Shown here piece after piece: positions 3,514 to 20,954 of a stretch of 64,000 bases of DNA (positions are counted from its first letter, which is position 1; every line of letters starts with the position of its first letter). The notes beneath the pieces are model-generated. The model did not search any database and was not told the DNA's origin. It worked only from the letters and a program-made list of their open reading frames with translations. The stretch is from the NCBI GenBank assembly GCA_016841525.1, contig JAENYZ010000002.1, positions 268,078-332,077 on the forward strand, given 5' to 3'. The DNA is from Anaerolineaceae bacterium (lineage in GTDB: Bacteria; Chloroflexota; Anaerolineae; Anaerolineales; Anaerolineaceae). The translations under genes were made by a program, and so were the position numbers.

Positions 3514-5883
3514 ATGAAACACAAAAAAGCATTGGTTATCGGCTCAATCATCTTATTGATTGTTATTGTCACATTGTGGGCAAAGGATATCCTTCAATGG
3601 GAGAAAAATGATGCCAATTTTTCAGAACCGGTGGTTGACCCCGCTTTGGTATCAGCGGCAAAGCTTGCCGACTCTCTGGATTACCTGATTTATTTTGAGG
3701 AAAAGGCAGACCTGACGGGTGCTTTTGAGCTGCCCTGGGATGAGCGGGGCTGGTATGTCTATGATACCCTTGTGGCGCAGGCTGAAGAGTCACAGGCGAA
3801 GGTGCGAAAATTCCTTGATAAACGCGGTGTGACCTACCAGTCATTTTGGATCGATAATGTGATCGCTGTTGAAGATTCGAATGCCTTAACCTTTAACGGC
3901 TTGATGAAATTCATGGAAATCGAGTCCATTCAATCAATCCCGGTGATTTCCCTTGCAAACCCAATTGGCGGCGTGATTGATGAGGCGCCAGAGGCATTGG
4001 TTCAAGCGACCCCGAACCAGCTGCATATCAATGCAGATGATGCCTGGTCTGCTGGCTACAAGGGGCAGGGATTGGTTGTGGGCAGTATAGATACAGGTGT
4101 GCGTTACACCCATGAAGCGCTCAAGGACCAATACCGGGGATATTCGCAGGAGACATATTTTTCCCACGGCTTTCAATGGTGGGATGCGGTGAATGGTTCC
4201 ATTGCGCCCTATGATGACCATGGGCACGGGACACATACGACGGGTATCATGGTCGGTACAGATAGGTTTGGAAACATTCTCGGTGTGGCACCGGAAGCCC
4301 AGTGGATGGCTTGCAAAGCGATTGATAAGAATGGCAGCGGTTTGGGCTGGGATTTCCTGGAGTGCGGCCAGTTCATGCTTGCCCCCTGGGATCAGGACGG
4401 GCAAAATAACAACCCCAATTTGCGGCCGCATGTGGTCAATAATTCCTGGGGAAACTGCAGTCAGAGCTACACAGACTGGTTTGCGGGCACAATTGATGCC
4501 TGGCTTGCTGCTGGCATCTACCCAGTTTTCGCGAATGGCAACGCCAGCAACTGCGGCTATGAGATGCCGCCCGGTCTGGGCACGGTGGGCAGCCCAGCGC
4601 GTGCTTATAACGTGACCGCGGTTGGCGCCACGGGTGCCGATGACGGGCAATTAGCCAATTTCTCAACCTGGGGACCAACGGACAATCCTGACTCCCTGAA
4701 TGGCGAACCTTTTCCCTTGATCAAACCGCAGGTGGTAGCACCCGGGGTCAACATTCGGTCTTCGGTTAGCTCTGCTGATAATGACTATGCTTATTGGGGC
4801 GGCACATCCATGGCAGCACCGCATGTTTCTGGTTTGGTGGCATTGATGTGGCAAGCAGGAGACTGCCTGCTTGGTGATTATGCCCAGACTGAAAATCTGA
4901 TTGAGAAATCAGCCGTACCGATCCCGTATGAAACGGGCAGCGGTGATGAAGGACCGGGGAATGTGCCCAACCACGCAACTGGTTGGGGAGAGATTGATGT
5001 GATTGCTGCCGTAAAGGAAGCAGAAAACTTTTGCGGCGATAGCGATGAAATGATCCTCTTATCGGGCAGCGTCAGGGACGGCGGCGGTCATGGTTACCCG
5101 CTTTATGCCAGGGTCAGCCTGGTGTCTGACCATCACAAGCCTGTGACCTACACAGATCCATTTGACGGCAGCTATTCCCTGAAAGTTTATCGGGACGTCC
5201 TCTATGACCTGGAAGTCACTTCAGAAATCCCGGGCTATCAGCCGATCCAGGAAACCAGGCTGGTTTTCAGTGAACAGAACGCGATACGGGATTACTCAAT
5301 GCCGGTGGCGCTGAGCTGTGATGCGCCAGGTTACCAGCTTGATGAAGGGCTTTGTGAAATTCAAGGAGGCGGCGTTTTAGCCGGTTTCGTTGTGGATATT
5401 AGAACCGGTTTGCCAGCGGATGATGCTTCGATTTCGAGGGATGGTTATTTTGTCGAGTCACAAAGGACACCTGAAGACCCGATTCTCCCGGATGGCTTTT
5501 ACTGGGCATTTCAACCCACAACACAGGACCAGGAAAGCATCACGATTCTTGCGGCTAAGGATTTCTATCAAAGTCAGGAAGTGAATGTTCTGATAAGTCG
5601 GGACAACATCACTCAAAAAGATTTTGCATTACGACATTATCAAGACATCCTCAAGGCAACCCTTTCAATGCTTTGGGAAAAGATTGTAGATTTTTCAGAT
5701 ATAGCCTGGGATAGAATTGCTGCATTTGGGATGATGATCTGGGATCACATTGCACAATTCTTTGTTCAGATTTGGGAAAAAATCGCCGCCTTCTTTGCAA
5801 ACATTTGGCAAAGTATTGTCGCATTCTTCAACAGGTTGTCGGAAATTCTCACAGCTTGGTTTATCCGCACCTTTAAGCCTTGA
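3514..5883 (+). CDS. Subtilisin-like S8 serine protease with N-terminal anchor and C-terminal 11-residue repeats
   Basis: This secreted or membrane-anchored endopeptidase has 789 residues from the ATG at 3514, which has GGAG six bases upstream. A TTG at 3496 is in frame but has no ribosome site. Residues 5-24 form a signal anchor. The catalytic triad is visible: Asp about 193 (GSIDTGVRYTHE), His about 238 (DDHGHGTHTTG) and Ser about 432 (GGTSMAAPHVSG), with the oxyanion Asn in FANGNAS. Residues about 160-500 are the peptidase domain. Carboxypeptidase-regulatory-like beta domains follow (SGSVRDGGGHGYPLYARV and LAGFVVDIRTGLPADD). The last 75 residues contain five tandem 11-residue units of the form (L/A/I)W(E/D/Q)xI(A/V)xF. 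It appears to be a single-gene unit. Confidence 0.95.
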   Translation: MKHKKALVIGSIILLIVIVTLWAKDILQWEKNDANFSEPVVDPALVSAAKLADSLDYLIYFEEKADLTGAFELPWDERGWYVYDTLVAQAEESQAKVRKFLDKRGVTYQSFWIDNVIAVEDSNALTFNGLMKFMEIESIQSIPVISLANPIGGVIDEAPEALVQATPNQLHINADDAWSAGYKGQGLVVGSIDTGVRYTHEALKDQYRGYSQETYFSHGFQWWDAVNGSIAPYDDHGHGTHTTGIMVGTDRFGNILGVAPEAQWMACKAIDKNGSGLGWDFLECGQFMLAPWDQDGQNNNPNLRPHVVNNSWGNCSQSYTDWFAGTIDAWLAAGIYPVFANGNASNCGYEMPPGLGTVGSPARAYNVTAVGATGADDGQLANFSTWGPTDNPDSLNGEPFPLIKPQVVAPGVNIRSSVSSADNDYAYWGGTSMAAPHVSGLVALMWQAGDCLLGDYAQTENLIEKSAVPIPYETGSGDEGPGNVPNHATGWGEIDVIAAVKEAENFCGDSDEMILLSGSVRDGGGHGYPLYARVSLVSDHHKPVTYTDPFDGSYSLKVYRDVLYDLEVTSEIPGYQPIQETRLVFSEQNAIRDYSMPVALSCDAPGYQLDEGLCEIQGGGVLAGFVVDIRTGLPADDASISRDGYFVESQRTPEDPILPDGFYWAFQPTTQDQESITILAAKDFYQSQEVNVLISRDNITQKDFALRHYQDILKATLSMLWEKIVDFSDIAWDRIAAFGMMIWDHIAQFFVQIWEKIAAFFANIWQSIVAFFNRLSEILTAWFIRTFKP
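5671..5835 (+). repeat. Five tandem 33-base units encoding 11-residue amphipathic repeats
   Basis: The end of the S8 protease encodes LWEKIVDFSDI, AWDRIAAFGMM, IWDHIAQFFVQ, IWEKIAAFFAN and IWQSIVAFFNR without gaps. Trp is fixed at position 2, Ile at 5 and Phe at 8. An 11-residue period fits a continuous amphipathic helix with an aromatic face. Confidence 0.85.
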
Positions 5884-8955: not shown

Positions 8956-9147
8956 TTAGAAAATCGCAATTAACAGGACAATTGGTAAGGCTAAGAATAA
9001 GCCTACAACCACCAGGATGGCAAGCGCTGCACCCAGGAGTCCAAAGACCAGGCCAAAGGCACCGCCGATCAAGCCCGTCACGAGGCCAAATAAGCCCTCA
9101 ATTAATCCAACGACCAATCCAAAAAAACCTTCAATTAAACCAAACAT
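8956..9147 (-). CDS. Small glycine-rich repeat membrane protein, 63 aa
   Basis: The protein is wholly hydrophobic apart from two Glu residues. Its first two thirds are an 11-residue repeat: FGLVVGLIEGL, FGLVTGLIGGA and FGLVFGLLGAA, preceded by a partial unit, MFGLIEGF. Gly recurs on one face as in a glycine zipper. The rest is a plain membrane helix ending LPIVLLIAIF. An AAAGGAG ribosome site lies eight bases before the ATG but within the 3' arm of a long hairpin. It is on the same strand as the photolyase gene upstream. I do not recognise the family. Membrane assembly or pore formation is possible but is inference. Confidence 0.75.
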   Translation of the reverse strand: MFGLIEGFFGLVVGLIEGLFGLVTGLIGGAFGLVFGLLGAALAILVVVGLFLALPIVLLIAIF

Positions 9148-10652: not shown

Positions 10653-10716
10653 CGTTTCTCCTTTGTTATTTAATTGTAATAAATTTCTTGGAAATGATGT
10701 GAACTTGTATGTGCTT

Positions 10717-10745
10717 AAAAGAAAGCCGCCCGGTTTTCGGGCGGC
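10717..10745 (-). terminator. Intrinsic terminator between the 20-codon ORF and phr
   Basis: GCCGCCCG and CGGGCGGC form an 8-bp GC stem around a five-base loop. The minus strand continues TTTCTTTT. It lies about 65 bases before the phr start, so it could attenuate phr transcription. Confidence 0.85.
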
Positions 10746-10760
10746 GTTTCCTCGTTCTTT

Positions 10761-10853
10761 GGCTGCAGCACCAATTATCGAATGTTCCCGAGGAGTGGTG
10801 CCACAGCCGTTGTTAAGTAACTACTACTATCTAACATTGTACACCACCTCCTC
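10761..10853 (-). promoter_or_regulatory. Mutually exclusive RNA stems over the 20-codon ORF
   Basis: Bases 10790-10800 can pair with 10842-10853, the ribosome site of the small ORF, giving 11 pairs with one bulge. Alternatively 10796-10808 can pair with 10761-10773 (11 of 13 pairs). The two stems share 10796-10800, so only one can form. A terminator follows directly on the minus strand. Confidence 0.6.
10775..10837 (-). CDS. 20-residue leader-type peptide upstream of phr
   Basis: The ORF reads MLDSSSYLTTAVAPLLGNIR and stops. A strong AGGAGG site sits nine bases before the ATG, and a promoter lies about 70 bases further upstream. The Ser codons are three consecutive AGT. It ends 30 bases before a strong terminator. 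The excellent ribosome site and tight promoter-ORF-terminator layout suggest that it is translated, either as a leader peptide controlling phr or as an independent micro-gene. I recognise no family. Confidence 0.55.
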   Translation of the reverse strand: MLDSSSYLTTAVAPLLGNIR

Positions 10854-10904
10854 TTGTCGTGGGATAGCAAGGCGAGAAGCGAGAAAGCTTCTGAATTATT
10901 GCCT

Positions 10905-10935
10905 ATAGTATCACATAAGAGCCTGGCTTTGTCAA
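10905..10935 (-). promoter_or_regulatory. Sigma-70-type promoter for the phr leader
   Basis: On the minus strand a perfect TTGACA (10930-10935) is followed after 17 bases by GATACT, or after 19 bases by TACTAT. Transcription would start about 60 bases before the 20-codon ORF. Confidence 0.65.
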
Positions 10936-20822: not shown

Positions 20823-20834
20823 GTGTCGTTGCAA

Positions 20835-20930
20835 TCTCATCCCTCCGCCGGCATTATCCGGATCAGGTCTTGCGGGTCGAAGATTTGCATCTTCCTCTCA
20901 GCCTGTGTGATCAGGCTCCCCGTTCAACTG
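20835..20930 (-). ncRNA. TPP (THI-box) riboswitch
   Basis: The minus-strand RNA has the conserved TPP aptamer elements in order: GGGGAGCC, CTGAGAGG, the ACCC junction, CCTGATCCGGATAATGCCGG and GGAGGGATGAG. It precedes a terminator and thiN-thiB-thiP-thiQ. By analogy with known TPP switches, ligand binding should promote termination and shut down thiamine uptake. Confidence 0.97.
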
Positions 20931-20954
20931 TCATGATTATTTTATTATGTTGAT

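Follow-up and report, generated by a model that had tools for sequence, protein, structure and literature searches.

The locus and its parts

Is the compact locus that lies on the minus strand between a DNA photolyase gene and a divergent aldo/keto reductase gene a leader of the photolyase, or is it a gene in its own right? The sequence-only reading of the window (the whole 64,000-nucleotide stretch of DNA that was analyzed) proposed an attenuator, in which ribosome movement on a 20-codon open reading frame (ORF) chooses between competing stems ahead of a terminator and the photolyase gene phr. All elements that it named were found, at 10716-10935 of the minus strand. Transcription would start from a sigma-70 promoter (10935-10907) composed of TTGACA (10935-10930), a 17-nt spacer and the extended -10 element TGTGATACT (10915-10907), which contains GATACT with TG before it, and the promoter scored 10/12 matches. 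The 5' element GCTATCCCAC (10868-10859; consensus GCYATCC) can pair with part of the extended Shine-Dalgarno site (SD) GAGGAGGTGGTGT (10853-10841), and this pairing is referred to as helix 1. The tail of the genome's own 16S rRNA is GGATCACCTCCTTTCT. With this strong ribosome site, the 20-codon ORF MLDSSSYLTTAVAPLLGNIR extends from 10837 to 10775 and ends with the stop codon TAA, and its codons 4-6, read from the sequence, are three AGT serine codons (10828-10820).

The stretch inside the ORF that is complementary to the SD, the anti-SD GGCACCACTCCTC, lies at 10802-10790, close to the 10790-10800 given before. It overlaps the 5' arm of hairpin 2, GGCTGTGGCACCA (10808-10796), whose 3' arm, TGGTGCTGCAGCC (10773-10761), follows directly 3' of the ORF and can pair with the anti-SD stretch, exactly where the competing arm had been placed. 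An intrinsic terminator (10745-10716) follows, with a GC stem at 10745-10725 and a U-tract at 10724-10716, and the next gene downstream is phr (PF03441, PF00875). The divergent gene upstream encodes the aldo/keto reductase (PF00248). The transcript would thus be ~185 nt in length, from a predicted start near 10901 to 10716. The leader between the predicted start and GCTATCC (10900-10869) contains a small hairpin, AGAAGC/GCTTCT, and its sequence is not conserved in relatives.

Two other features of the window were recorded. A 63-codon ORF after phr (8956-9147, minus strand) encodes repeated glycine-/leucine-rich, membrane-like units (MFGLIEGFFGLVVGLIEGLFGLVTGL...) and had no Pfam match. A TPP riboswitch (RF00059, 66.7 bits) at 20823-20932 of the minus strand is the sole Rfam match of the window at threshold.

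The RNA from 10901 to 10718 folds at -68.5 kcal/mol, compared with a mean of -47.5 (sd 4.1) for 200 dinucleotide shuffles (z = -5.1). Within 4 kb, promoter-like sites (6 vs 5.4 in shuffles) and terminator-like sites (8 vs 5.0) were not above chance in number, so a promoter and a terminator alone prove nothing and conservation must carry the case. The stems covary across 87 distinct sequences, and the comparison of relatives that had been suggested shows the ORF and the stems to be conserved, with compensatory changes.

Distribution of the RNA

BLAST with a 246-base query gave matches in 21 of the 61 genomes searched, namely the own genome (one match), 14 of the 15 other genomes of the same genus, and six more. 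The single miss within the genus was G008, which is 71% complete, and the match in G026 covered only 24 bases of the terminator. A covariance model built from 19 sequences (R1) detected the RNA in 199 of the 301 genomes of the order (132 of the 174 of good quality) and in 203 of the 396 of the class. Eight of the 199 genomes had two R1 matches; in G014, the one inspected, the second was the antisense of the same hairpin. A second model, R2, was built from 88 matches and applied to a class sample of 397 genomes with completeness of at least 90%, and 243 of these contained exactly one match each. The other 154 were without a match and included whole genera of the own family. A laxer search of 12 matchless genomes, mainly from the own family and the class, gave six weak hits in four of them (E 0.03 to 0.53), and a narrow search near these hits for GGAGG followed by CCYC found nothing. 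Because only weak hits were obtained, real losses are likely, for example in genera g15 and g17.

The listed genomes of g15 and g17, which belong to the own family (f1), were without a match or had weak ones only, in contrast to the own genus, where the RNA is almost always present. Their lack of it offers a natural test of what goes missing along with the RNA. A scan of 84,980 species genomes with one class-type pattern yielded 42 hits, and every record concerned carries in its title Chloroflexi, Chloroflexota, Anaerolineae, Anaerolinea, Caldilineae or one of their orders or families.

A search of 400 genomes with R2 turned up 11 weak matches (E 2.0e-4 to 5.6e-4) beyond the class, in other families of the phylum. 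By eye, nine of the 11 share the layout: AAAGGAGGTGATGCC is followed by an ATG-initiated ORF of 14-16 codons that contains a complement of the SD (GGGCATCACC in four of the nine), and beyond the stop codon come another arm and a terminator. The fit is poorer for L207 and L208; L208 is doubtful, yet it was kept among the 112 homologues. An independent pattern (AGGAGGTGATG, 12-42 bases, GCATCACC) was found in 16 of 400 genomes, and its reversed control in none. Five of the 16 hits were in the class and 11 outside it. Four of the latter belong to family f118, and L231, L236, L237, L240 and L241 add families f121, f123, f113 and f76, the hits in f76 having GTG starts; L238 and L239 look like chance and were set aside. 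These sequence comparisons indicate that other parts of the phylum Chloroflexota have diverged versions of the RNA that share its layout.

Several sequences were left out of particular counts. L021 (terminator only) and L013 and L022 (one gene split between two contig ends) were removed before the first alignment (A1), and L023 and L024 (short secondary matches) before sequence extraction. The antisense match L039:6659-6706 and L072, which comes from the same genome as L147, were excluded from most homologue counts, namely from the ORF, frame, SD:anti-SD count, folding, promoter, 16S, antisense and codon analyses. Both remain in alignment A2, which was used for covariation with identical rows counted once, and L072 also remains among the 87 gene-order contexts. 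L100, which is without a full ORF, is absent from the frame, folding, substitution and codon-enrichment counts, and two further sequences that are out of frame with the anchor are absent from the nearest-neighbor substitution test and the close-pair test.

Gene order and the photolyase

We examined gene order at the 86 loci for which a downstream gene was called, taking ORFs of at least 80 residues; one genome occurs twice among them. The next gene was on the same strand in 44 loci and on the opposite strand in 42. A gene of the photolyase cluster was next in only 12 of the 86, and 11 of the 15 same-genus genomes have this arrangement; in the remaining four same-genus genomes the next gene is MoeA (two) or a convergent gene (two). 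After photolyase, the commonest next-gene clusters were phosphofructokinase (9, opposite strand), an AIR-synthase-like protein (7, same strand) and an HNH endonuclease (7, opposite strand). The clusters, for each of which one member was identified, had no common theme and gave no clue to function.

A sigma-70-like site with at least 9/12 matches was found upstream of 99 of 110 homologues, compared with 8.2% of mononucleotide shuffles. The terminator is also conserved as a structure, with two-sided changes at 8/8 modeled pairs, and in the consensus structure its columns are separate from those of hairpin 2 and of the SD:anti-SD pairing. The terminator and the competing stems have no bases in common, and its formation is therefore not governed by those stems. 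Moreover, TACAAT precedes phr in eight of the 12 phr-adjacent loci (10678-10673 of the minus strand in the window), and its conservation suggests that phr has its own promoter, of which this is likely the -10 element.

A leader or attenuator of the downstream gene, phr here, is very improbable in spite of phr being next in most genomes of the genus and of the attenuator-like ORF, stems and terminator. Neither a constant same-strand gene downstream nor competition between a terminator stem and an antiterminator was found. A short ORF with a codon run was found, with at least two AGY codons in 79 of 111 ORFs, for which a regulatory role is putative. The photolyase attenuator was rejected on gene order, strand, independence of the terminator and the TACAAT before phr. 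Thus the sequence-only reading had the elements right and their interpretation mostly wrong; some read-through into phr may occur within the genus. The comparisons suggest that the locus is most likely a free-standing, single-copy small RNA gene and not a photolyase leader.

Two mutually exclusive pairings of the anti-SD

Hairpin 2 had two-sided changes at all 13 of its pairs, and 94.8% of its cells were paired. For the whole model of 31 pairs, 428 cells carried two-sided changes compared with 107 in shuffles, none of 500 shuffles reached any of five measures, and slid controls reached at most 0.104 compared with 0.514, these shuffle and slid controls taking no account of relatedness. In helix 1, between the 5' element and the SD, 93.6% of cells were paired and the changes were almost all one-sided.

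The predicted pairing of the ribosome site with the inside of the ORF was supported by comparison. With one bulged U allowed, all 10 SD:anti-SD pairs could form in 79 of 86 sequences and nine in the other seven, and the mean of 9.92 pairs was above that of all 1000 shuffles (mean 9.64, maximum 9.73). Five of these pairs were scored by covariation: 97.6% of their cells were paired compared with 92.2% in shuffles, and none of 500 shuffles reached the covariation score. The number of pairs with two-sided changes (2/5) was reached by 306 of the 500 shuffles and is not above chance. The covariation resides chiefly in one column pair (A-U 40, G-C 25, G-U 10, U-A 3, U-G 2). As a further caveat, the anti-SD is also constrained by hairpin 2. 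The same anti-SD base tracks both the SD base and the 3'-arm base, and among 86 sequences the triples A/U/A (25) and G/C/G (23) were the commonest. Because the SD:anti-SD pairing and hairpin 2 use the same bases, they are mutually exclusive.

Folding with ViennaRNA (n = 85) predicted a switch between the two. In RNA ending at the stop codon the median SD:anti-SD pairing was 1.00, compared with 0.00 in the full RNA, in which hairpin 2 stood at 0.92. The accessibility of GGAGG was higher in the full RNA than in the stop-ended RNA in 81 of 85 sequences; it was still low (median 0.22), some of the SD being taken up by the 5' element GCYAUCC. For the RNA encoded in the window, SD:anti-SD pairing decreased from 0.996 to 0.002 and GGAGG accessibility increased only from 0.20 to 0.28. 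The anti-SD core was partly unpaired in the full RNA (median 0.50).

The 3' end of the genome's own 16S rRNA reads ...GCGCCTGGATCACCTCC, and the in-ORF sequence resembles it, for example ...GCGCCGTGGCATCACCTC in L105. In L105:3991-4126 and similar sequences, the 5' arm and the anti-SD together look like the 16S 3' end, GCGCC included, through either mimicry or coincidence. Such likeness would let the in-ORF sequence compete for SDs in general.

A proposed mechanism and its possible output

Among the homologues, which were gathered with models and patterns that include these very features, the promoter, SD, start codon, in-frame ORF, in-ORF anti-SD, stop codon, 3' arm and terminator are kept together. 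We propose that the locus is a free-standing, self-gated small mRNA or riboregulator, with its own promoter and terminator, that is set by transcript completion and ribosome position. From conservation and predicted folding, we give this reading a probability of roughly 0.55. While the RNA extends only to the stop codon, the anti-SD is predicted to hold the SD. Once the 3' arm has been made, the anti-SD would be drawn into hairpin 2 and the SD freed, save for the weak pairing with the 5' element, and initiation would wait for completion of the RNA. On reaching the stop codon, a ribosome would then cover the 3' arm and leave the anti-SD near its trailing edge; with the 3' arm covered, the anti-SD may return to the SD, which would make initiation self-limiting. 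If true, this would be a natural system for the control of initiation by transcript completion and ribosome position. Its effect may be exerted by pairing of the loop with other mRNAs, by the stability of the RNA or by the peptide.

A possible account, away from which we lean, concerns the output of the RNA and overlaps the mechanism above. The RNA would be a base-pairing dual-function sRNA, in which the CCUC loop of hairpin 2 pairs with the SDs of other mRNAs and the ORF or the switch sets the availability of the loop. The free-standing transcript suggested by gene order and promoter, the partly unpaired anti-SD core in the full RNA and the resemblance to the 16S 3' tail are consistent with it. 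However, the loop bases beyond the anti-SD vary, and the partner within the same RNA already explains the anti-SD. A bolder conjecture, which we consider rather unlikely, is a phylum-wide "attenuator without a gene," in which ribosome transit over the AGU-rich ORF would toggle a copy of the 16S tail, located within the ORF, between masking of the RNA's own SD and display in a loop, and would thereby signal to other mRNAs, in trans, how translation or the pool of free 30S subunits stands.

The ORF, its codons and the peptide

An ORF of 12-22 codons with a start codon at normal SD spacing was present in 111 of the 112 homologues. The exception is L100 (G348, 4010-4144), in which the frame is broken and the stems are intact; its genome is a single contig rated 77% complete, so the break may be an assembly indel, and otherwise the ORF may be decaying. 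The frame was kept in 83 of 85 sequences, with 27, 30, 33 or 36 nt from the start codon to the anchor and 15, 18, 21 or 24 nt from the anchor to the stop codon.

These figures would be expected of a micro-protein gene, in which the RNA structures would do no more than adjust the dose of the product, a peptide of 12-22 residues. Synonymous changes were indeed above expectation in close independent pairs, with nine synonymous and 12 nonsynonymous changes (9/21; 18% synonymous expected), and with 12:25 (12/37; 17% expected) and 19:44 (19/63; 16% expected) at wider cut-offs. Among nearest neighbors in the wider set, however, no synonymous excess was detected in the N-terminal part (42:219, 42/261 vs 17% expected) or in the tail (36:137, 36/173 vs 26% expected), in a count that scored codons with several changes as nonsynonymous. 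In addition, the conserved part of the peptide coincides with paired RNA. Taken together, these substitution counts suggest that the peptide is constrained weakly at most, and we consider a micro-protein gene unlikely. The fallback of the sequence-only reading, an independent micro-gene, thus came nearer the truth than the photolyase attenuator as regards a free-standing unit, and the result was mixed as regards the peptide as its product.

The codons behind the start are strongly biased. AGT makes up 180 of the 888 codons at positions 2-9 of 111 ORFs, which is 37.5 times its frequency in neighboring long ORFs, and AGC (3.5-fold), TGT (10.5-fold) and CGT (4.6-fold) are also enriched there. AGT or AGC occurs among codons 2-9 of 109 of the 111 ORFs, AGY is in phase 230 times and out of phase 26 times, and serine is encoded by 227 AGY codons compared with 12 TCN codons. 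This bias would suit a sensor of charged tRNA for the AGU/AGC serine codons, in which pausing ribosomes alter which stem forms. Against it, TGT and CGT are enriched too, which could mean that the enriched codons reflect an RNA sequence motif around GUAGU, and no serine gene was a regular neighbor among the few neighbor clusters identified; such a sensor is distinctly unlikely. For the self-gated RNA, the rare AGU codons near the start may slow the ribosome. From the comparison of homologues, constraint seems to be stronger on the frame and codons than on the peptide, and ribosome position is therefore probably what matters.

The last alternative, a type I toxin mRNA whose translation is delayed by metastable SD-masking structures, is scarcely credible: masking of the SD by such structures is indicated by folding and comparison, and the upstream SD-pairing element and in-ORF anti-SD recall the two successive hairpins of Helicobacter pylori aapA3 (PMC6733600), but no conserved antisense promoter was detected (promoter-like sites in 7 of 112 homologues vs 6.2% in shuffles), inspection of the translations revealed no hydrophobic stretch in the peptides, and there is one copy per genome.

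Comparison with known systems

No Rfam 15 family matched the window locus or 19 homologous loci at the gathering score. At a permissive threshold, L105 and L217 gave sub-threshold matches only, the best being Leu_leader (30.3 bits vs the required 50), on both strands and over the terminator. Two known RNAs were considered and rejected: the 6S RNA (RF00013) match of the genome is at another locus (G000:C5:540358-540530, 64.5 bits) with none at the RNA locus, and SRP RNA had no Rfam match at the RNA locus. A word search of the open-access literature found no counterpart of the RNA among the papers listed, and passages of PMC2864571, PMC6733600 and PMC10339803 likewise contained none. The RNA family is apparently undescribed so far. 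It is a single-copy family across the class and beyond with a conserved three-part pairing switch, in which coding sequence, anti-Shine-Dalgarno sequence and hairpin arm are one and the same stretch.

Leader-peptide attenuators of the trp, his and phe type combine a short ORF rich in one codon, alternative stems and a terminator. The RNA described here resembles them in all three, but it has no constant downstream gene and its terminator lies outside the alternative pairing; if the proposed mechanism is true, it would represent leader-type logic without a downstream gene. Some sRNAs carry a CCUCC-type anti-SD sequence in a hairpin loop. The anti-SD here is likewise in a hairpin loop, but it is part of an ORF, and its conserved partner belongs to the same transcript. 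The CCUCC-type motif is mentioned in PMC10746234. Like the dual-function sRNAs Spot 42, whose short ORF encodes 15 residues (PMC10339803), and SR1, the RNA is small and free-standing with a short ORF. It differs from both in that the anti-SD for its ribosome site lies inside the ORF, and its action in trans is hypothetical.

The nearest described logic is that of the H. pylori aapA3 toxin mRNA (PMC6733600), in which the SD is masked successively, while transcription proceeds, by an anti-SD upstream of it and another in the ORF. These masking hairpins give way to sequence made later, and the complete RNA is shut until 3' processing. Both RNAs thus appear to share upstream and in-ORF anti-SD masking that is displaced by later sequence. 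In contrast to aapA3, the Chloroflexota RNA yielded no antisense promoter, its peptide is not toxin-like by inspection, and the complete RNA is predicted to be open.
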